Source of the DNA: Kiritimatiellia bacterium | GTDB taxonomy: Bacteria > Verrucomicrobiota > Kiritimatiellia > RFP12 > UBA1067 | DNA: 40,981 nt | Direction: 5' to 3' | Assembly: GCA_017631385.1 (NCBI GenBank) | Contig: JAGBTH010000044.1 | Span: forward strand, 1-40,981 | Shown here: positions 4,358 through 32,843 of the stretch, one piece after another | Position numbering within the stretch: position 1 is the first letter of the stretch | Layout: the number at the start of each line of letters is the position of its first letter | Program-made: the position numbers and the translations under genes | The notes under the pieces: model-generated | What the model saw: only the letters and a program-made list of their open reading frames with translations | Databases searched by the model: none | Told to the model about the DNA's origin: nothing

Positions 4358-5779
4358 ATGAATAAACTATCATATAAAACATTAACAGAAACGGGGTTTG
4401 GTGGATATTTGCTTCGCGAGGCTCCGGAGAGAGTTCTGCAATTTGGAGAGGGGAATTTTCTTAGAGCGTTTGTAGATTATTTTATAGATATTCTCAATGA
4501 GAAGGCTGGCTTTAATGGTAAGGTTTGTCTCGTTCAGCCCATTCCTGGCGGTGATTTTATACGCGATGCGATAAATGCACAAGAAGGACTTTACACTCTT
4601 TATCTGCGCGGTTTCGAAAACGGTGGTGCCGTAAACCGCAAACGCGTAATCTCGTCTGTTTCGCGCTGCATTAATCCTTATGTAGATAATGCGGCGTTTT
4701 TGGATAATGCTAAAAATCCAGATTTGAGATTTATTGTTTCTAATACAACTGAAGCAGGTATTGCGTACGATAGCTCCTGTAAATTTGACGATGCTCCGGC
4801 GAATTCCTTTCCAGCTAAAATGACGCGCTTTCTTTATGAACGCTTTAAATTTTTTGGAAAGGAAAAAGGTAAAGGCTTTATCATTCTTTCGTGCGAACTG
4901 ATCGATAATAACGGGCGCGAACTTAAGAGATGTGTAAAGCTCCATGCGACCGATTGGAATTTAGGTGAGGAATTCTCTCGCTGGATAGATGAGGAAAATA
5001 TCTTTTGTTCAACGCTCGTTGATCGTATTGTAACCGGCTATCCGCGAGACGAAGCTAACTGTCTCAACGAGGAAAACGGCTACGAAGATAACGTAATAGA
5101 CACGGGTGAATGTTTTGGTTTTTGGGTCATTGAAGGCCCTAAGTCAATCGCCGATGAACTCGGATTAGCTAAAACCGATTTGCCGATTATTGTTGTTGAC
5201 GATCACACGCCTTATAAGCAGCGAAAGGTTCGTATTTTAAATGGGGCGCATACATCGTTCGTTCTTGGGGCTTACCTAAAAGGCTTTAATATTGTTCGTG
5301 ATTGCATGAATGATGAAGGTGTAAGGTCTTTTATGGAGGAGACGATTTACGCTGAGATTATTCCAACGTTGACGCTGCCCGAAAAGGAGCTTAAGGATTT
5401 CGCCACGTCTGTTACCGAGAGGTTTAAAAATCCCTTTATCAATCATAAGCTTCTTGATATTTCGCTCAATTCAGTTTCTAAATGGAAGGCGCGATGCTTG
5501 CCGAGTGTAAAAGCGTATTACGAAAAATTTGGTAAGTCGCCCAAGAATCTTTCCGCTTCCTTCCGTTCGCTCGTGGAGTTTTATTCACGCGGCGAAAAAT
5601 GGAACGCAGAAAGGACCGCCCTCGAGGCAAAGCGTGGCGATGAGACATATCTCATTCGTGACGATAAAAAGGTTCTCGAATGGTTCTTCGAAAACCGCAC
5701 GATGCCGCTTGAATCTCTCGTTACTAAATGCGCGGCGAATGTTGAATTTTGGGGCGAAGACATAAATATTTATCTCTAA
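4358..5779 (+). CDS. uxaB: Tagaturonate reductase (altronate oxidoreductase)
   Basis: UxaB reduces D-tagaturonate to D-altronate with NADH in galacturonate catabolism and belongs to the long-chain mannitol dehydrogenase family. The 473-residue protein begins with the family N-terminal domain (ERVLQFGEGNFLRAFVDYF, residues about 25-43). The catalytic-region signature KVRILNGAHTSFVLGAYLKG follows near residue 290, with the conserved Lys, Asn and His. Length agrees with UxaB, and the EENGYEDNVIDTGECFGFW segment favours UxaB over mannitol dehydrogenase. The start ATG has no strong ribosome-binding site. It is separated by 2 nt from uxaA, which performs the next step, so they form an operon. Galacturonate would come from pectin, matching the beta-helix protein at 22.5 kb. 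Confidence 0.9.
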   Translation: MNKLSYKTLTETGFGGYLLREAPERVLQFGEGNFLRAFVDYFIDILNEKAGFNGKVCLVQPIPGGDFIRDAINAQEGLYTLYLRGFENGGAVNRKRVISSVSRCINPYVDNAAFLDNAKNPDLRFIVSNTTEAGIAYDSSCKFDDAPANSFPAKMTRFLYERFKFFGKEKGKGFIILSCELIDNNGRELKRCVKLHATDWNLGEEFSRWIDEENIFCSTLVDRIVTGYPRDEANCLNEENGYEDNVIDTGECFGFWVIEGPKSIADELGLAKTDLPIIVVDDHTPYKQRKVRILNGAHTSFVLGAYLKGFNIVRDCMNDEGVRSFMEETIYAEIIPTLTLPEKELKDFATSVTERFKNPFINHKLLDISLNSVSKWKARCLPSVKAYYEKFGKSPKNLSASFRSLVEFYSRGEKWNAERTALEAKRGDETYLIRDDKKVLEWFFENRTMPLESLVTKCAANVEFWGEDINIYL

Positions 5780-11361: not shown

Positions 11362-12315
11362 TTGGCTACTAGCCAAAATATTGGTCCTTATAGAATAATT
11401 TGTCCCCTCGGCTCAGGAGGTATGGGGGCTGTTTATGAGGTTGTGCCAATTTCTGGGGGTGAATCTTTAGCTCTTAAAAGCTTTACTTCCGTAGGCTCGC
11501 ATGCTGAATTTCTTCGTAAGCGCTTTGTAGCCGAAGGTAAAATTCTATCTAAGCTTAATCATCCTCAACTCGTTAAGGTTTATGAGTTAGGGTATGATGA
11601 AGTAATAGGATCCCCATATTTTACGATGGATATGGTCTTAGGACCTAATGGTAGCCCATGTACTCTAGAAGATTTGCGGCGCAAAGGAGAAATTGACGAA
11701 AATGCCGTTGCGATATTTTATGCTGATTTGCGCTCTGCACTAAAATACCTCCATGAAGAGGGCGTTGTACATCGTGACGTTAAGCTAGAGAATGTGCTTA
11801 TTAATTCCGAACGACGAGCTATTCTTTCGGATTTTGGCGTTTCGCGCATAATAAAGCCTGATTTACGCCAAGAACTCGCTGTAACTACAACATTCGCGTC
11901 AGATCGTGCGCCGATTATGGGGAGCGCGGGCTATCTTTCGCCTGAGCTTAAATCAGGCGCGGCTGCTACGCCAGCGGATGATGCCTGGGCGCTCGGTGTC
12001 TTAACATTTAGGCTTTTAACTGGCGTTTGGTACGAAAAAGATTCATCGGCGATGGAATTGTTGGCAGGTTTCGATCGAAAGTGGGCGAAACTTTTGGAAG
12101 TGCTTTTAAATCCTGATCCTAAAAAGCGTTTGCCAATTCCGCCCGCACCATCGCTCTTGTCGGCGCGACGTAGAATTTTAAGTCGTGTCTTTTGGATAGG
12201 CGCGGCATGTATGGGGTTAGTAGGTGTTTGTATTTTTATTGCTTCATATTTTTCAACGCCTCACTATGACTTCGATGAGTTTTTTCCGCCAGAAGTGGAG
12301 GAGGTGGCGTTATGA
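11362..12315 (+). CDS. Membrane-anchored Ser/Thr protein kinase
   Basis: This is a Hanks-type kinase of 317 residues. The N-terminal catalytic domain carries the glycine loop PLGSGGMGAVYE, a Lys in LALKSF, the catalytic loop VVHRDVKLENVLI, and SDFGVSRI for the DFG motif; GSAGYLSPE is the activation-segment end. A single membrane segment near residues 272-292 (FWIGAACMGLVGVCIFIAS) leaves only about 25 residues outside, so there is no visible sensor domain. The start is a TTG with a weak AGG upstream; no earlier in-frame start keeps the glycine loop intact. It overlaps the ECF sigma gene by 4 nt (ATGA), so the kinase probably signals to that sigma factor or is controlled with it. Confidence 0.88.
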   Translation: MATSQNIGPYRIICPLGSGGMGAVYEVVPISGGESLALKSFTSVGSHAEFLRKRFVAEGKILSKLNHPQLVKVYELGYDEVIGSPYFTMDMVLGPNGSPCTLEDLRRKGEIDENAVAIFYADLRSALKYLHEEGVVHRDVKLENVLINSERRAILSDFGVSRIIKPDLRQELAVTTTFASDRAPIMGSAGYLSPELKSGAAATPADDAWALGVLTFRLLTGVWYEKDSSAMELLAGFDRKWAKLLEVLLNPDPKKRLPIPPAPSLLSARRRILSRVFWIGAACMGLVGVCIFIASYFSTPHYDFDEFFPPEVEEVAL

Positions 12316-12908
12316 GCGTATTCCCAGAAACACCAACAATGCTTTTAACGCGTATCGCAGTACTCTCTACTGGCGAAGATCAATCAGTATGGACAGAGTT
12401 TTTTGAGTTGTATGAACCTGCTATGCGATTATATCTCGTTAATCGAGGAATTGATGAATTAAAGGCTGAAGATATAGTCCAAGATGTTTTTGTTAAGTTA
12501 GTGGGTGTATTGCGAACAGGCTCTTACGATAAAAAGCGCAGTAGATTTCGCACATATCTATCGCATTTATTGTACAATGAGATGATCGATCATTATCGGC
12601 GGGCTCAAGCGCGGCGAGAAGATTTACATATTCCGATTGAAGAAGGAGATATCGAAGTTGCCTCAACGGTAGGCGACGTGTTAGATAGAGAGTGGGCTAA
12701 AGCGCGTCATTTAGCGGTAGTTGCGCATATTCTTCAAAAAACTGCGCTTTCGGCGCAATCTAAGCGTGTTTATCAAGAGTTGGTTACTACAGGCGATACA
12801 TGCGAAGAAGTTGCTAAGCGTATGGGAATTAAGGCGGCTGCCGTTAGACAGATTAAATCGCGTATAGGTCGAATGGTCGCGGCGCTTGAAGAAAGGCTCG
12901 GGGAATGA
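12312..12908 (+). CDS. ECF-type RNA polymerase sigma factor
   Basis: The 198-residue protein has sigma region 2 at about residues 30-100, including AEDIVQDVFVKL and the -10 recognition segment with RFRTYLSHLLYNEMIDHYRR. Region 4 near 145-195 contains the helix-turn-helix TCEEVAKRMGIKAAAVRQIK. There is no anti-sigma factor next to it; instead it sits between a Ser/Thr kinase and a formylglycine-enzyme-like protein, overlapping both by 4 nt. Kinase-linked ECF factors occur in Planctomycetes and relatives, where phosphorylation may replace the anti-sigma switch. That mode is an inference for this operon. The factor would direct RNA polymerase to an unknown target set. Confidence 0.88.
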   Translation: MSVFPETPTMLLTRIAVLSTGEDQSVWTEFFELYEPAMRLYLVNRGIDELKAEDIVQDVFVKLVGVLRTGSYDKKRSRFRTYLSHLLYNEMIDHYRRAQARREDLHIPIEEGDIEVASTVGDVLDREWAKARHLAVVAHILQKTALSAQSKRVYQELVTTGDTCEEVAKRMGIKAAAVRQIKSRIGRMVAALEERLGE

Positions 12909-13981
12909 AGGCTATTCTTACGCTATTTCTGAGCTTTTTATTCAGTTTCGCTCTTATAGGCGCGACTGCGGAGTATGAAATGGAGCGTCAGGAAGTTAAA
13001 AAGCTTCTCGCCGAAGATTTCGCCGCGCTTAATAAAGGTAAGTTAACTCTAGCTCAAGTTGGCGAGAGAGCTCTCGCATTAGCCGAAAAATCGAGTGGAA
13101 CTATTCGTCGACGTATTCTTTTTGATGGTGCGCGGCGAATTTTCGAGCGAGTAGGAGATGATGAGCGTGTAACGAAGATTAAAGAGCAACTAGATTTAGA
13201 GACGAGACTTTTCGTTACTTCGGGTAAAACCGCTTTATTGCGCTTAGGTAAATATGGTGAGATAGAATTCGCTCATTGTCCGACGGGAACTGTAGATTTA
13301 GCTATTCATTGGCGTAATGGAAAGACTAAGAGTGTTAATTTAACTAAACCGTATTGGGTTATGAAGTATCCTCTTACGCGGCGCCAATCAGCATTATTCC
13401 CGCCGCTAGATCCGCCGAATGGGATAGTTACTGAGGAGGCGTTTAAGAATTATGTCTGCCTTAACCGTACTCAAGCTGAAGGGTTGTGCGAATATTTTAC
13501 GCGGCACTTTAAAGATGAGCTGCCCGATGGTTATGTTGTGCGGCTACCGACATTAGCGGAGTGGGAGTATGCGTTTCATGCGGGAACAAAAGATACTGAG
13601 AGTCCGTTTTACGAGCTATTGCGCATTCATGTTAATGATGAGATTGATCGTGCTGTTAGATATGATTATGATGGCGGTAAACCTCAGCGCGAGAAAGCGG
13701 TTAATGCATGGGGAATCGGTGATTGGTGTGGTCAGGAGAAAGTTTATGATACGGTTGATCCGTCAAAGATAGAGGTTTCGCCTAATGATAAGGGCGATTT
13801 TATCCAAGTTCGTGCGCTTCCGCCGTTAGATACTACGGTTGACCCATGCTTTACATATAAAGGCTCTGATGGAATGACGCTTATCCGCATGCCATTCTGG
13901 GCGCGTTGGAATGCCGCGCGTATCGGTTTTAATCAGGATTGGAGTCCAATTCGCCTCGTTATCGCGCCTAAGATAAAGTAA
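12905..13981 (+). CDS. Secreted FGE-sulfatase (SUMF1)-fold protein, probably non-catalytic
   Basis: The 358-residue protein has a signal peptide (KAILTLFLSFLFSFALIGAT) and a helical N-terminal region of about 100 residues. A C-terminal domain resembles the formylglycine-generating enzyme fold. Clues are the opening KPYWVMKYPLTRRQ, the characteristic YVVRLPTLAEWEYAFHAG near residue 215, WGIGDWCGQE, and the end segment RIGFNQDWSPIRLVIAPK. The end segment lacks the pair of Cys needed for copper-dependent formylglycine formation, so it is probably a carbohydrate- or ligand-binding derivative. ATGA overlap with the sigma gene makes it the third gene of a coupled operon; it may be the exported output or the sensor of the kinase pathway. 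Confidence 0.75.
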   Translation: MKAILTLFLSFLFSFALIGATAEYEMERQEVKKLLAEDFAALNKGKLTLAQVGERALALAEKSSGTIRRRILFDGARRIFERVGDDERVTKIKEQLDLETRLFVTSGKTALLRLGKYGEIEFAHCPTGTVDLAIHWRNGKTKSVNLTKPYWVMKYPLTRRQSALFPPLDPPNGIVTEEAFKNYVCLNRTQAEGLCEYFTRHFKDELPDGYVVRLPTLAEWEYAFHAGTKDTESPFYELLRIHVNDEIDRAVRYDYDGGKPQREKAVNAWGIGDWCGQEKVYDTVDPSKIEVSPNDKGDFIQVRALPPLDTTVDPCFTYKGSDGMTLIRMPFWARWNAARIGFNQDWSPIRLVIAPKIK

Positions 13982-14094: not shown

Positions 14095-14103
14095 TGGTAT
14101 AAT
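14095..14103 (+). promoter_or_regulatory. Extended -10 promoter of the structured RNA and operon
   Basis: TGGTATAAT is a perfect extended -10 element; no good -35 box is present at 16-18 bp. Initiation would fall near 14110, exactly where the long pseudoknotted RNA begins. The upstream part of the gap (13982-14094) holds no gene; it has short crossing inverted repeats (CACTCC/GGAGTG and GCGTAT/ATACGC). Confidence 0.6.
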
Positions 14104-14109
14104 AATCTT

Positions 14110-14291
14110 ACACTTCTTTCGAAAGACTGGTAATCGTTCGAATAAGGGAAGGTGTATCACTAGGATAACTGTATTCATTTGCGGTGTCCTCTGTGTGCAT
14201 TTCCCTTGGGCATACCAGTCGCCTCGAAAGAAATCACACAGAGGCACCGCTTTTTTCGCACACAGGAGCGGGGCTGATGTACGGGGTGTGC
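14110..14291 (+). ncRNA. Pseudoknotted leader RNA, copy 1
   Basis: The transcript can fold with three long-range helices. Helix A pairs 14114-14122 with 14224-14232 (9 bp) and 14125-14132 with 14213-14220 (8 bp), separated by an AA/GCC internal loop. Helix P3 pairs AAGGGAA (14144-14150) with TTCCCTT (14201-14207). Helix B pairs 14181-14197 with 14235-14250 (16 bp, one bulged T) and is followed by six T. The order A, P3, B, P3', A', B' makes B a pseudoknot with A and P3. A last hairpin, GCACAC/GTGTGC (14258-14291), ends directly at the AAAGGAGG ribosome-binding site of the next gene. An RNA with the same helices is found at 28057-28304. The class is not one I recognise; a leader or a separate small RNA are both possible. 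Confidence 0.75.
14181..14256 (+). terminator. Terminator-like helix B of RNA copy 1
   Basis: GCGGTG-t-CCTCTGTGTG pairs with CACACAGAGG-CACCGC, 16 bp in all, followed by TTTTTT at 14251-14256. Its 37-nt loop contains the 3' halves of helices P3 and A, so folding of those helices could change termination. The 5' arm CTGTGTGC (14191-14198) could alternatively pair with GCACACAG (14258-14265) after the T run, which would be an antiterminator. Confidence 0.65.
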
Positions 14292-14306
14292 AAAGGAGGA
14301 TGAGTT

Positions 14307-15002
14307 ATGTCAGTTGGAGCTGAAAATCAGACCGACAAAAATCAAACTGACTCTAATTGGCGGTTTGGAGCGTGGTTCAAAAAATGGTTATTATCATTAT
14401 CGCTGAAAAATAAAATTTTTATAGTTGTCTTATTTATATCTTTAATTGGTTGGTTTATTGTTTGTGTTAAAGGTAGCGATGAAACTAATTTTTTTGAGAC
14501 CAATGATCCTGTTGCTCGGATACAACAAGTCAATATGGCGCAGTCTAGACTTTGTGTATTAAAAATTAATGCGAAGACATGTTTATATGGCGAGCATAAG
14601 ATGAGTGATTACGATTTGACTCCATACAAAGTGGGGTATAGTCATGGTGGAGAAGTTGATATTGTTGTAGATTTAGACGAAGCGAGAGTTGAGTTGATGG
14701 ATGAGCATATAAAAATCTATGTTCCTGAACCTCATATAGATGAAGCGACACTTAATATTAGGCCAGAGAGTTTAAGGCGTGTAAGAATCTCCGGAGGCTT
14801 GCGAACTGAAACGCAAAGGTCGAAAAAAGATAATGAACTTAAGTTTAAAATTGTGGAAGATTTTAAAGAAACTATTAATGTTAATTTTCCTAAGAAAGAA
14901 GCTAGAAATCATGCTCTTATTGTTTTAAAGTCGCTGTATGCAACTCTGGGCTTTCATAACGTAGAGATTGAGTTTATTCCTGTAAATGCTGACGTAAAGT
15001 GA
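14307..15002 (+). CDS. Membrane-anchored DUF4230-like protein
   Basis: The 231-residue protein has a polar N-terminal tail, one membrane helix (residues about 34-53, KIFIVVLFISLIGWFIVCVK) and a soluble C-terminal domain. The pattern of a small-molecule-free beta domain with GGEVDIVVDLDEARVELMDE and IKIYVPEPHID resembles DUF4230, a family of single-pass proteins of unknown function. Family membership is judged by pattern only. It starts 7 nt after an excellent ribosome-binding site (AAAGGAGG) and directly follows the structured RNA. The next gene is a second member of the same family, 8 nt away, so the two may form a heteromer. It opens a run of nine membrane and zinc-ribbon genes. Confidence 0.6.
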   Translation: MSVGAENQTDKNQTDSNWRFGAWFKKWLLSLSLKNKIFIVVLFISLIGWFIVCVKGSDETNFFETNDPVARIQQVNMAQSRLCVLKINAKTCLYGEHKMSDYDLTPYKVGYSHGGEVDIVVDLDEARVELMDEHIKIYVPEPHIDEATLNIRPESLRRVRISGGLRTETQRSKKDNELKFKIVEDFKETINVNFPKKEARNHALIVLKSLYATLGFHNVEIEFIPVNADVK

Positions 15003-18552: not shown

Positions 18553-18596
18553 GGTAGATAAGTGGCATCGTCTAATCAATAGAAAGGTTGCTTTTT

Positions 18597-20444
18597 ATGA
18601 TCTGTCAGAACTGTAACGAGAAAAATATCGATGCGGCCGTATTTTGCCGTAAGTGCGGTAAGAGAATGGTTGTTTTAGAGCAAGAAGTAGCGAATGATAA
18701 GAAAAGATGCGTGCAGTGCGGCGGTGAACTTAATGACGATGATTGCTTTTGTATGCAGTGCGGCGCGGCGGTAGAATCGTCCATCAAAGATAAATCCGAA
18801 GCTTCTACCGATGAGGCGATTAATGAAGTCAATGCTAATACTCAAGAAGAAAGTGCAGAAGAAGAAAGCGTGAAAATTCCGACAGATATTCCATTTGTTA
18901 CTGGAATATTGACGGTACTTATAATCGCTTGTTCAGGCTGGGTGTTTTGGCGTACTAATTCACTGATGGATGTTTCGGCTGAAGCGCTCTTAAAGTTTGG
19001 TGGAAATTTTAAGGCGTTGACATTTTCGGGTGAAGAGTGGCGTCTTTGGGCGAATACTCTACTTCATGGTGGATTGATTCATCTTGCAATGAATATTTCT
19101 TGCCTTTGCTCATTCGGACCGATGCTCGAAAGAATGGCGGGGCATGTTAAGTTTTTAGCTCTTTATTTGATAGCAGCTATCGGTGCAAGTGTGGTATCTG
19201 CAATTTTTAACGGCGATGTTGTGTCGATTGGCGCGTCGGGGGCTATATTTGGTATTTTGGGATCCTTAATGATGTATGTACTTGTTATAGGATGGCGCTT
19301 TGGGCTTACAAAAGATTCGATATTGGCGCATTTAAAGCAAGGATTTATTTTTGCCGGAGTTAATCTTGCTTACAGCTTGAGCCCAGGGATTGATATGTCA
19401 GCTCACATTGGGGGCCTGTTAATCGGTGTAGGAGTAGGATTTTTGTTTGCCTTTGTAGAGTTATTGTATCCAAAGTTTTTTTCGCGTCTTATTAAATGTG
19501 TGCTCGCCGCATTATCTTTATTTGTGATATCTAAAATGACATATTCGTGGATCAAATCGGATTCATGGATAGGTTCAGAATCAGAAAATCACACTTTGGA
19601 ATATAAATTGAATTCGTCATCAGCCGAGAAAGGGGATGCTACGGCGCAGTTTAATCTCGGCTTAAGTTATTATAATGGACAAGGAGTTGTGCGAGATTAT
19701 GCTGCGGCTGCAAAGTGGTTTCGCAAGGCGGCAGAACAGGGGTATGCATCTGCGCAGTTTAATCTTGGCGTGATGTATAGTAATGGCCAAGGCGTTGAGC
19801 AGGATTATGTTGAGGCAGTAAAGTGGTTTCGCAAGGCTGCGAATCAGGGGCATGCGGATGCGCAGAATAATCTTGGGATTATGTATGATAATGGCCAAGG
19901 AGTTGAGCAGGATTATGCAGAGGCAGTAAAGTGGTATCGCAAGGCGGCGATGCAGGGGGGTGCGCAAGCGCAGCACAATCTTGGCGTGAGCTATGCAAAA
20001 GGTCAAGGCGTTACGAAAGATGATTATGAGGCGGCAAAGTGGTATCGTAAGTCGGCGGAACAGGGGAATGCGTCTGCGCAACGTGGCCTTGGCGGTCTGT
20101 ATATGGAAGGTCGTGGAGTTGTTCAAAATTATTTTGAGGCTGTAAAGTGGTTTCGCAAAGCAGCGGAGCAGGGGGATGCGCCTGCGCAGCGTGGCCTTGG
20201 TGGTATGTATGCGAATGGATTGGGAGTTTCTAAAGATGAACATGAGGCAGTTAAGTGGTATTGTAAGGCTGCGGAACAAGAGGATGCGATTGCGCAATTT
20301 AACCTTGGCTTGATGTATGCGAATGGTCAAGGAGTAGAGCAGAATTATACAGAGGCAGTAAAGTGGTTCCGTAAGGCTGCTGAGCAGGGGGATGCGAATG
20401 TTAAAACAGCGGCTAATAATGCGTTAAAGATTTTAGGCTATTAG
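18597..20444 (+). CDS. Zinc-ribbon / rhomboid protease / Sel1-repeat fusion
   Basis: The 615-residue protein has three parts. Residues 1-56 hold two four-Cys zinc ribbons (Cys 3/6/17/20 and 38/41/52/55). Residues about 98-325 are a multi-pass rhomboid domain with HGGLIHLAMN in the second helix. The catalytic Ser214 lies in GASGAIFG and the catalytic His270 in SAHIGG, so an active intramembrane serine protease is predicted. Residues 347-598 are seven 36-residue Sel1 (TPR-like) repeats, which bind protein partners. The ATG at 18597 follows GAAAGG by 9 nt; the upstream TTG at 18588 abuts that site. In the operon it may cleave or scaffold the neighbouring single-pass proteins; that is inference. 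Confidence 0.85.
   Translation: MICQNCNEKNIDAAVFCRKCGKRMVVLEQEVANDKKRCVQCGGELNDDDCFCMQCGAAVESSIKDKSEASTDEAINEVNANTQEESAEEESVKIPTDIPFVTGILTVLIIACSGWVFWRTNSLMDVSAEALLKFGGNFKALTFSGEEWRLWANTLLHGGLIHLAMNISCLCSFGPMLERMAGHVKFLALYLIAAIGASVVSAIFNGDVVSIGASGAIFGILGSLMMYVLVIGWRFGLTKDSILAHLKQGFIFAGVNLAYSLSPGIDMSAHIGGLLIGVGVGFLFAFVELLYPKFFSRLIKCVLAALSLFVISKMTYSWIKSDSWIGSESENHTLEYKLNSSSAEKGDATAQFNLGLSYYNGQGVVRDYAAAAKWFRKAAEQGYASAQFNLGVMYSNGQGVEQDYVEAVKWFRKAANQGHADAQNNLGIMYDNGQGVEQDYAEAVKWYRKAAMQGGAQAQHNLGVSYAKGQGVTKDDYEAAKWYRKSAEQGNASAQRGLGGLYMEGRGVVQNYFEAVKWFRKAAEQGDAPAQRGLGGMYANGLGVSKDEHEAVKWYCKAAEQEDAIAQFNLGLMYANGQGVEQNYTEAVKWFRKAAEQGDANVKTAANNALKILGY
19635..20390 (+). repeat. Seven 108-bp Sel1-coding tandem repeats
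   Basis: Seven consecutive 108-bp units encode 36-residue Sel1 repeats with the consensus AxAQxNLGxMYxNGQGVxxD and EAVKWFRKAAEQG. Units 2, 3 and 7 are closest to each other, and units 5 and 6 share an RGLGG start, which points to recent internal duplication. The array could vary in copy number between strains. Confidence 0.85.
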
Positions 20445-21296: not shown

Positions 21297-21404
21297 GAAA
21301 TTCGATTTTAAATTTTTAAGTTTTTTTTTAAATATTTTTTTAGGGTCTAAAATTGGGTGAAAAAATATGGTGTTGTTAGCCGAAAAACGGTATCGCGTCA
21401 TTTT

Positions 21405-21513
21405 ACCCCCTCACGAGCTCGAGAACGAGAAGTGCGCACCTTTTACCCGAGAAGTGCGCACTTCTCGACCGAGAGGTGCGCACTTCTTGTCTTCGGGCTC
21501 GTAACGAGGGGGT
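21405..21513. repeat. Palindromic element with three 22-bp units
   Basis: The ends ACCCCCTC (21405-21412) and GAGGGGGT (21506-21513) are inverted, followed inward by CACGAGCTCGA and its imperfect complement. The centre holds three copies of GTGCGCAC at 21432, 21454 and 21476, exactly 22 bp apart, with similar sequence between them (TTCTCGACCGAGAG type). A single-unit relative lies at 32787-32843, showing that this is a dispersed element family with variable central repeats. Confidence 0.7.
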
Positions 21514-27606: not shown

Positions 27607-28056
27607 TAATAAAAGTTGCGTCCTATAGTAGACGGAGAACGTAAGAATCTTGATACCAAGTGAGTTGCGTCACTGCTTGTTAGGCATAGTTTTATCATTG
27701 TTTTGTGATTATAAAAAATAACCGTAGTTAGCGTAAAATTTTTAGTTAACTTTTTTATGCTTAACGATATAATAGTGGATCAGTAGAAAAACGATCTGAT
27801 TTCTTAAAAAAATACAAATTTGGAGACTATCATTATTGATGTAAAAGTGATATAATACGAATGTTTTTGTTGGAGAGATTGATACTTCAATAGAAATGAG
27901 CAAGATATATGAAAGGAAGAATAGAGAGTTTATTAAGATTATATCACCGGTCGTAGTACCAGAAATGGCCGGCTTCTCCACTTGGTTAGTTGTTAGGGGT
28001 CAGGGGTTAGAGAATTCTAAACCTAAAACTTTTAACTAACCAAGGAGTGAGAGTGA
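27607..28056. other. Gene-free stretch upstream of RNA copy 2
   Basis: I see no credible gene here. It contains two -10-like elements, TATAAT at 27768-27773 and an extended TGATATAAT at 27848-27856, and AT-rich sequence. It also holds the long inverted repeat at 27982-28043. The short open frame after 27861 encodes only ten residues. The region probably supplies promoters for the accessory cluster at 28.3 kb. Confidence 0.5.
27982..28043. repeat. 62-bp imperfect hairpin with heptamer-like interior
   Basis: TTGGTTAGTT (27982-27991) and AACTAACCAA (28034-28043) are perfect inverted repeats of 10 bp. The interior can continue the stem through GGGGTTAGA and TCTAAACCT. The left half contains TTAGGGG-TCAGGGG-TTAG, a 7-bp periodicity like the array at 27154. 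It could be a small mobile repeat or a transcription stop. Confidence 0.5.
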
Positions 28057-28304
28057 GTATGGGGTGCGAAAGCTAACCCATACGACGTACGCGAATCAGC
28101 GTATGACGCTTCATGTGAAAATCGCCAAAATTTCAGCAAAAGCGGAATACGATGGTCGCGCTACGTGGATAATCCACGTGGCGTGTTTTCATCATTCATG
28201 TTTTTGCTAAGGCGTTTGGCGATGCCTCACATGAGACGTGGTGATTTGAAAACACGCCACTTCTTTTTTCCGCGCAAGGGGGTGAGTCGTGAAACAAAGT
28301 GCGG
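28057..28304 (+). ncRNA. Pseudoknotted leader RNA, copy 2
   Basis: The core repeats the architecture of the RNA at 14110-14291. Helix A pairs 28111-28118 with 28227-28234 (8 bp) and 28121-28129 with 28215-28223 (9 bp), again split by an AA/GCC internal loop. Helix P3 pairs AGCAAAA (28135-28141) with TTTTGCT (28202-28208). Helix B pairs GTGGCGTGTTTTC (28178-28190) with GAAAACACGCCAC (28248-28260), then TTCTTTTTT. A last hairpin CCGCGC/GTGCGG lies at 28270-28304. Extra features are two 5' hairpins (28057-28083 and 28088-28103) and an ACGTGGAT hairpin (28163-28179) that competes with helix B. No clear promoter was found. Confidence 0.72.
28178..28269 (+). terminator. Terminator-like helix B of RNA copy 2
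   Basis: A perfect 13-bp helix, GTGGCGTGTTTTC with GAAAACACGCCAC, is followed by TTCTTTTTT. The 57-nt loop contains the 3' halves of helices P3 and A. The 5' arm overlaps a local hairpin (28163-28179), so folding of that hairpin would weaken the terminator. Confidence 0.6.
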
Positions 28305-28319
28305 GAAAAGGAAAACAAA

Positions 28320-28484
28320 ATGGATAAAGAAGTAGCTGCTGAAAAAGCTAAAAAAATAGGTGGGATATTATTGGTTGTATTAACGAAAACTTTTAAGGTT
28401 ATGTGGGTTTGTGTTAAGTGGATTTTTAAAGCGCTTTGGTGGATAATTAAGAATTTTAAATTCAAGACCACTTCAATGAATTAA
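28320..28484 (+). CDS. Small Trp-rich membrane protein
   Basis: The 54-residue protein has a charged N-terminus (MDKEVAAEKAKK) and one or two close hydrophobic helices rich in Trp and Lys (GGILLVVLTKTFKVMWVCVK, then KALWWIIKNFKFK). It looks like a single-pass or surface-lying amphipathic membrane protein, similar in style to the N-terminal membrane part of the protein at 17977. The ATG at 28320 follows an AAGGA motif. It is the first gene after structured RNA copy 2 and is followed 10 nt later by the next small gene, so both are probably in one transcript. No function is known. Confidence 0.6.
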   Translation: MDKEVAAEKAKKIGGILLVVLTKTFKVMWVCVKWIFKALWWIIKNFKFKTTSMN

Positions 28485-28945: not shown

Positions 28946-29044
28946 CCATTCGGATAATTTATAATACTAGATTTTATTTAGTATAGTAGTTATGTCGAAT
29001 GGAGACTGCCACTCGTTTTTTTAATCGAATTAAATTTCGAGTGG
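28946..29044 (+). promoter_or_regulatory. Two intercistronic hairpins between precursor and maturase
   Basis: The first hairpin pairs CCATTCG (28946-28952) with CGAATGG (28996-29002), with inner ATAA/TTAT and ATACTA/TAGTAT helices. The second pairs CCACTCG (29009-29015) with CGAGTGG (29038-29044), with inner TTTAAT/ATTAAA, and is followed by tagTTTTT. They look like a partial terminator that keeps precursor mRNA in excess over enzyme mRNA. Confidence 0.55.
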
Positions 29045-29079
29045 TAGTTTTTCTGTTTGGTCAAAACGGGAGATTGTTA

Positions 29080-32758: not shown

Positions 32759-32786
32759 TGAAGATTAGCGCTATATCCTTCTTACG

Positions 32787-32843
32787 CCCTCACGAGCTCG
32801 AAGACACAAGGTGCGCACCTTTCGTCTTCGAGCTCGTAGAGGG
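32787..32843. repeat. Palindromic element, single-unit copy
   Basis: CCCTC plus ACGAGCTCGAAGAC (32787-32805) and GTCTTCGAGCTCGT (32824-32837) plus GAGGG are near-perfect inverted arms of 19 bp. The centre AGGTGCGCACCT (32809-32820) is itself palindromic and contains GTGCGCAC. The element at 21405-21513 has the same outer arms and core but three 22-bp units. The gap 32759-32951 has no real gene; it holds this element and the next promoter. Confidence 0.75.

Follow-up and report, generated by a model that had tools for sequence, protein, structure and literature searches.

A structured leader RNA with two competing folds, probably a regulated transcription attenuator, in Kiritimatiellota, Bacteroidota and related phyla

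The stretch of DNA investigated here, referred to as the window, comprises 40,981 nt (contig JAGBTH010000044.1, positions 1-40,981, forward strand) and harbours two copies of a structured RNA: copy 1 at 14110-14291 and copy 2 at 28088-28269. All elements of both copies described below, as well as the genes that follow them, lie on the forward strand. Immediately upstream of copy 1 are a sigma-70-like gene and then a gene with an FGE-sulfatase domain (12312-13981). The first gene putatively controlled by copy 1 (14307-15002) encodes a DUF4230 membrane protein and is succeeded by a membrane-protein operon; its counterpart for copy 2 is an ORF for a 54-aa membrane peptide (28320-28484), after which comes a further small ORF. 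Elsewhere in the window, a 618-aa protein (18588-20444) combines zinc ribbons, a rhomboid protease domain and seven Sel1 repeats, the latter encoded by 108-bp tandem DNA repeats. Two intergenic regions (21403-21509 and 32782-32837) contain GCGCAC-centred palindromic repeats, partly in 22-bp tandem arrangement, with a common 41-bp sequence, and a short inverted repeat, CCACTCG/CGAGTGG, accompanied by T-rich stretches, surrounds the site at which the ORF at 28999 is predicted to begin (28995-29055).

The sequence preceding copy 1 contains an extended -10 promoter (TGGTATAAT) whose TATAAT box is located at 14098-14103. An earlier note on this DNA had described three long-range helices, A, P3 and B, and all of them are present in copy 1. 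The 5' strand of helix A, A5 (14114-14132), recognized by a structure descriptor and by covariation, consists of an outer segment (14114-14122), an AA loop (14123-14124) and an inner segment (14125-14132); its partner, A3 (14213-14232), is made up of an inner segment (14213-14220), the trinucleotide GCC (14221-14223) and an outer segment (14224-14232), and the resulting 9 + 8 bp flank an AA/GCC internal loop. The two strands of P3 lie at 14144-14150 and 14201-14207. The terminator helix B has its 5' arm, B5, at 14181-14197, and its 3' half (14235-14256) is composed of B3 (14235-14250) and a T6 tract (14251-14256). A local hairpin, C, occupies 14162-14190 (14162-14173 / 14180-14190), with its 3' arm shared with B5. 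The last hairpin, D, at 14258-14291 (14258-14263 / 14286-14291), extends as the note had it up to the ribosome-binding site, just 5' of the Shine-Dalgarno sequence at 14294-14299, and the alternative partner ascribed to the 5' arm of B beyond the T run also exists (14191-14198 / 14258-14265). The note had not recorded a fourth long-range helix, E, which is weak in copy 1 and is placed there by family-level covariation: its 5' strand, E5 (14109-14116), overlaps A5 and its 3' strand, E3 (14148-14156), overlaps the 5' strand of P3.

The second copy implied by the note is the one at 28088-28269. Here A5 spans 28106-28129, with AA at 28119-28120, and A3 spans 28215-28239, with GCC at 28224-28226; the strands of P3 are found at 28135-28141 and 28202-28208, B5 at 28178-28191, and B3 (28247-28260) with the U tract (28261-28269) at 28247-28269. 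Hairpin C lies at 28159-28183 (28159-28170 / 28172-28183), E5 at 28099-28111 and E3 at 28140-28151. A further local hairpin, P0, is located at 28088-28103 (28088-28093 / 28099-28103); P0 and helix E are rivals for E5. A TATAAT sequence that represents a candidate promoter is situated far upstream (27851-27856).

The feature at 14110-14291 has a fold z-score of -5.8, and the two copies display the same order of elements, namely A5, P3 5' strand, B5, P3 3' strand, A3, B3 and U tract, with unrelated helix sequences. Plain nucleotide similarity (BLAST) does not link the copies, and their agreement is thus structural: they were found by the structure descriptor and by covariance models. A helix-AA/GCC-helix descriptor applied to both strands of the window returned exactly two sites, 14114-14232 and 28110-28235, each with 17 Watson-Crick pairs, and none in 60 Markov-resampled windows. 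A further descriptor match, in L007 (12971), was discarded, since it is probably coding sequence and has no GA/UC frame.

The RNA is not confined to this locus. A third copy resides on another contig of the same genome and three further copies are present in other species of the genus. A first covariance model, built from three copies resembling copy 2, gave matches in 32 of 40 relatives, with up to eight per genome and E-values down to 1e-32, some weak antisense echoes of true sites being included. With a second model, this genome proved to contain at least 12 copies, among them copy 1 (E = 6.5e-7) and copy 2 (E = 2.1e-20); of 289 genomes sampled from the phylum, at least 102 carry the RNA, with few candidates scored per genome. 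In a Bacteroidota sample taken around the phylum of Chryseobacterium gregarium, 21 of 148 genomes carry it. Ten genomes picked because they hold one copy turned out to contain 2-11 copies each, and in Bacteroides muris the number rises to as many as 11 (strain NM69_E16B), compared with 10 in Alistipes sp. Marseille-P5061 and four in Chryseobacterium gregarium DSM 19109. A DNA pattern representing the core that is conserved occurs in at least 119 stretches of genome contigs and in five of putative viral contigs. The inner helix is fully complementary in all 124 pattern matches listed, although the pattern does not demand it, and the outer helix reaches at least 5 bp in 118 of these; the listed matches with a named group all belong to Kiritimatiellota, Verrucomicrobiota, Lentisphaerota, Bacteroidota or Kapaibacterium. 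Phage and plasmid collections yielded no convincing copy at the nucleotide level. Two local arrangements were also observed. At L273 (2204-2756) and L276 (1988-2539) two RNA copies follow one another in tandem with a gene-free spacing of 220 nt, and the L273 pair lies upstream of a KAP-family NTPase gene. At L274 a 722-bp block occurs twice in identical form, 3.6 kb apart (1469-2191 and 5036-5758); it contains the last part of a xerC-like gene, one RNA copy and the beginning of the gene that follows, and the sequences downstream of the two blocks differ.

Massive compensatory change across homologues, which the note had proposed as a check, supports A, P3 and B, and there is scarcely any doubt that the RNA family is real. 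For 158 distinct copies, each strand was paired with its own partner and with partners swapped in from other copies. The own partner was favoured in every helix: A outer (-10.5 vs -2.1 kcal/mol), A inner (-10.9 vs -6.4), P3 (-15.4 vs -8.7), E (-16.4 vs -9.7) and B (-28.4 vs -16.6), whereas control strand pairs were flat or nearly so. An alignment of 61 copies, constructed from sequence only and without structure, has 85.5% of its cells paired, compared with 65.2% after shuffling and 38-46% after sliding; double-sided changes affect 30 of the 33 pairs of A, P3 and B, and 459 cells are changed on both sides as against 161 in shuffled alignments, tests of the shuffle type being somewhat inflated by kinship among copies. 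Helix E joins the segment immediately 5' of A to the one that directly follows the 5' strand of P3. It overlaps A5 by approximately 4 nt as well as the extended P3, and because its windows overlap P3 its exact register is approximate. Together with the local hairpins P0 and C, it adds to the elements previously described. The AA and GCC are invariant because both served as search criterion. The GA and UC beside them, the UUU of linker 1 and the GGGC preceding A3 are mostly 74-94% conserved among the 158 copies. These nucleotides of the A stem (GA-AA / GCC-UC, UUU / GGGC) would likely be the contact site of a signal, be it a protein or a small molecule, that biases the choice between the folds. 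The claim that helices with a single partner evolve faster was tested and is weakly supported.

The note had viewed helix B as forming a pseudoknot. Helix B and the interleaved order of strands are borne out, but a static pseudoknot on a complete A and P3 stem is not: the gap between A3 and B3 has a median of 0.5 nt, B5 abuts the 3' strand of P3, and linkers of 0-2 nt cannot span a 24-bp stem, so the full stem and B cannot coexist. B therefore excludes at least P3, and a conformation with A and B formed and P3 open could exist. Moreover, C and B use the same strand, B5, and E takes bases of A5 and P3, competing with A/P3 and with P0. Strand sharing and short linkers together indicate that the RNA adopts mainly competing folds rather than one static pseudoknot. 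When successive transcript lengths were folded, with no pseudoknots allowed, E was formed in 97% of copies once E3 had emerged; upon emergence of A3 it was replaced, with A in 97% and P0 in 90% of copies, and at the U tract 79% of copies had A and 15% had B. Either fold, when imposed as a constraint, is very stable, and the median difference between the two is 7.5 kcal/mol in favour of A/P3/C.

Family-wide, T makes up 45-69% of the 7-8 bases that follow B3, and 58-69% at positions +1 to +7, against a background of 24%, with tracts that are short or interrupted in some copies. The next gene is co-directional in 127 of 138 scored cases (the upstream gene lies on the same strand in 76 of 118) and starts, preceded by a ribosome-binding site, a median of 88 nt after A3. 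The promoter is more variable. Its location exactly at the 5' end of the RNA, as formerly claimed, holds for copy 1 and roughly for Bacteroidota copies, in which the -7 element TAnnTTTG occurs shortly upstream in 15 of 33 cases versus 1.0 +/- 1.0 expected; it does not hold for copy 2, where the closest site resembling a promoter lies about 240 nt upstream. In the window's genus, TATAAT precedes many copies by some 160-270 nt, and the interval holds an additional domain that is partly conserved. This domain, about 200 nt long and with hairpins of its own, is situated between the TATAAT box and P0, at 27860-28085 in the window, and recurs before sister copies in L069, L071, L076, L098, L103, L107 and L117. 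It could be a separate sensor domain. A leader peptide was rejected as an explanation: copy 2 is open from an ATG, but by eye the frame is lost in sister copies.

Since these loci possess a promoter element of their own and a terminator, the RNA might be a free-standing small RNA that extends from the promoter to B and its U tract, with the pseudoknot of A and B, P3 being open, as working structure and the next gene merely adjacent. That conformation is sterically possible and all helices covary. The regular placement of a same-strand gene with its ribosome-binding site at a short distance nevertheless makes this reading unlikely, as do the covariation or conservation of P3 and C, which cannot coexist with B, and the many diverged copies in one genome, each standing before a different gene. 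Position directly 5' of the ribosome-binding site, and hairpin D reaching up to the Shine-Dalgarno sequence in copies 1 and 2, would also suit a leader acting mainly on translation or mRNA stability instead of termination. We regard this as improbable: the U tract right after B is conserved throughout the family, the conserved helices do not sequester the Shine-Dalgarno sequence, and D is known from copies 1 and 2.

Three features expected of an attenuator are found: a terminator hairpin with U tract in the leader, an antiterminator that shares bases with the terminator (C and B) or excludes it (A/P3 and B, through the linkers), and a position within the 5' leader of a gene on the same strand. 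The arrangement envisaged by the note, with an intrinsic-terminator helix B in a structured leader RNA, is supported. On this sequence-based footing, the RNA is probably a regulated, cis-acting transcription attenuator, a leader with two competing folds. One fold consists of the long A-P3 stem with its AA/GCC internal loop, capped by C and preceded by P0; in the other, E and B reuse the strands, E5 being drawn from P0, E3 and A5 from the A/P3 rod, and B5 from C. The best reading of the sequence is that A/P3/C would serve as antiterminator and B as terminator. With A/P3/C formed, B5 would be hidden and RNA polymerase would read through into the gene. Should E form first and hold A5 and the P3 5' strand in its loop, A/P3 could not close, B would form and transcription would end. 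The choice would be made at E versus P0 and may be biased by a factor. We infer this switching from sequence and folding: minimum-energy folding prefers the read-through fold in most copies, and termination would therefore need a factor or kinetic trapping.

The first downstream genes are mutually unrelated: 116 of them fall into 56 Pfam families, the top counts being 2-5. The most frequent are BspA-type LRR proteins (5), HsdM/N6 methylases (3), and N6_N4 methylases, KAP NTPases, DUF1016/YhcG nucleases, FRG, HEPN and HsdR N-termini (2 each); an EcoRI methylase, an Mrr-type nuclease, DarT and a Ser/Thr kinase, among others, also appear. Across the family the candidate controlled genes include adhesins and lipoproteins, and in this genome the first genes mostly encode predicted secreted or membrane proteins. 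With PADLOC at 1e-20, the 116 first genes hit 76 defence models and 116 control genes from the same contigs hit 14, a contrast that is only rough because the models are redundant. The control genes represent 96 Pfam families, among which are ribosomal proteins and metabolic enzymes. Unrelated families with defence genes among them argue for a regulon of accessory genes, in part for defence, rather than a metabolic pathway; accordingly, the 116 first genes are not tied to one ligand pathway, as those of a metabolite riboswitch would be.

Accessory genes that are horizontally mobile in kind and cassette-like in their diversity, together with the duplicated block at L274, might be taken to indicate a DNA-level element, for example a folded recombination site of gene cassettes. 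This is very improbable. The strand asymmetry, the promoter, the U tract and the spacing to the gene are those of an RNA, copies within one genome are strongly diverged, neither cassette arrays nor shared gene-end sequences were seen, and the gene order at L274 (hemB-like, xerC) looks chromosomal. To return to the attenuator, one switch reused before many accessory genes of a genome behaves like a shared regulon signal. It is conceivable, albeit as a tentative proposal, that the RNA constitutes a new signal-sensing attenuator class of Bacteroidota and Verrucomicrobiota/Kiritimatiellota/Lentisphaerota, in which a single shared cue, perhaps a second messenger or a factor linked to infection, acts via the AA/GCC of stem A to switch a scattered regulon of defence, surface and secreted proteins. 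If so, it would do for accessory genes, at the RNA level, what a global regulator does.

The note knew of no described class with this layout, and comparison with databases and literature agrees. No Rfam 15 family reaches its gathering score in the window, and permissive thresholds applied to sampled copies and both window copies gave sub-threshold matches at chance level only. Two such candidates were dismissed: BTnc005 (15 bits against a gathering score of 175) and HBV epsilon (far below threshold), neither of which recurs in Bacteroides copies. Searches that included exact core sequences found no description in the text of open-access papers. A large candidate list with unnamed Bacteroidetes motifs (PMC8040213) may already include a fragment of the RNA, which could thus have been recorded before as a candidate without a name. 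Rfam 15 lacks this large family of structured RNAs, and its occurrence in cultured species makes it open to experiment now. To our knowledge, few RNA regulators have been identified in gut Bacteroidota and Kiritimatiellota. If the RNA is a regulated attenuator, it points to a signal by which defence genes, those for restriction-modification included, are controlled together with surface proteins in these bacteria.

Several known systems invite comparison. T-box leaders resemble this RNA in being long and in choosing between antiterminator and terminator; neither the window nor the sampled copies match the Rfam T-box covariance model. The RNAs of type III toxin-antitoxin systems (ToxI) are likewise structured, with a terminator-like helix before a gene, and some genes downstream of the present RNA serve defence; however, it is not a tandem repeat and its downstream proteins are diverse, not one ToxN-like toxin. 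The motif has no short tandem repeat and the downstream families listed include no ToxN. Second-messenger riboswitches, such as c-di-GMP-I, control broad regulons and are found in many copies per genome before unrelated genes. The present RNA shares with riboswitches of this type its multiple genomic copies before unrelated genes, and differs in its core, its layout and its lack of an Rfam match. With transcription attenuators and riboswitch expression platforms in general, it has in common the leader position, the terminator with U tract, the mutually exclusive antiterminator, and conserved unpaired nucleotides flanked by covarying helices. Unlike the usual representatives of these, it surrounds a single long stem with two layers of competing helices (P0/E and C/B), and it does so in many copies per genome, before unrelated gene families.
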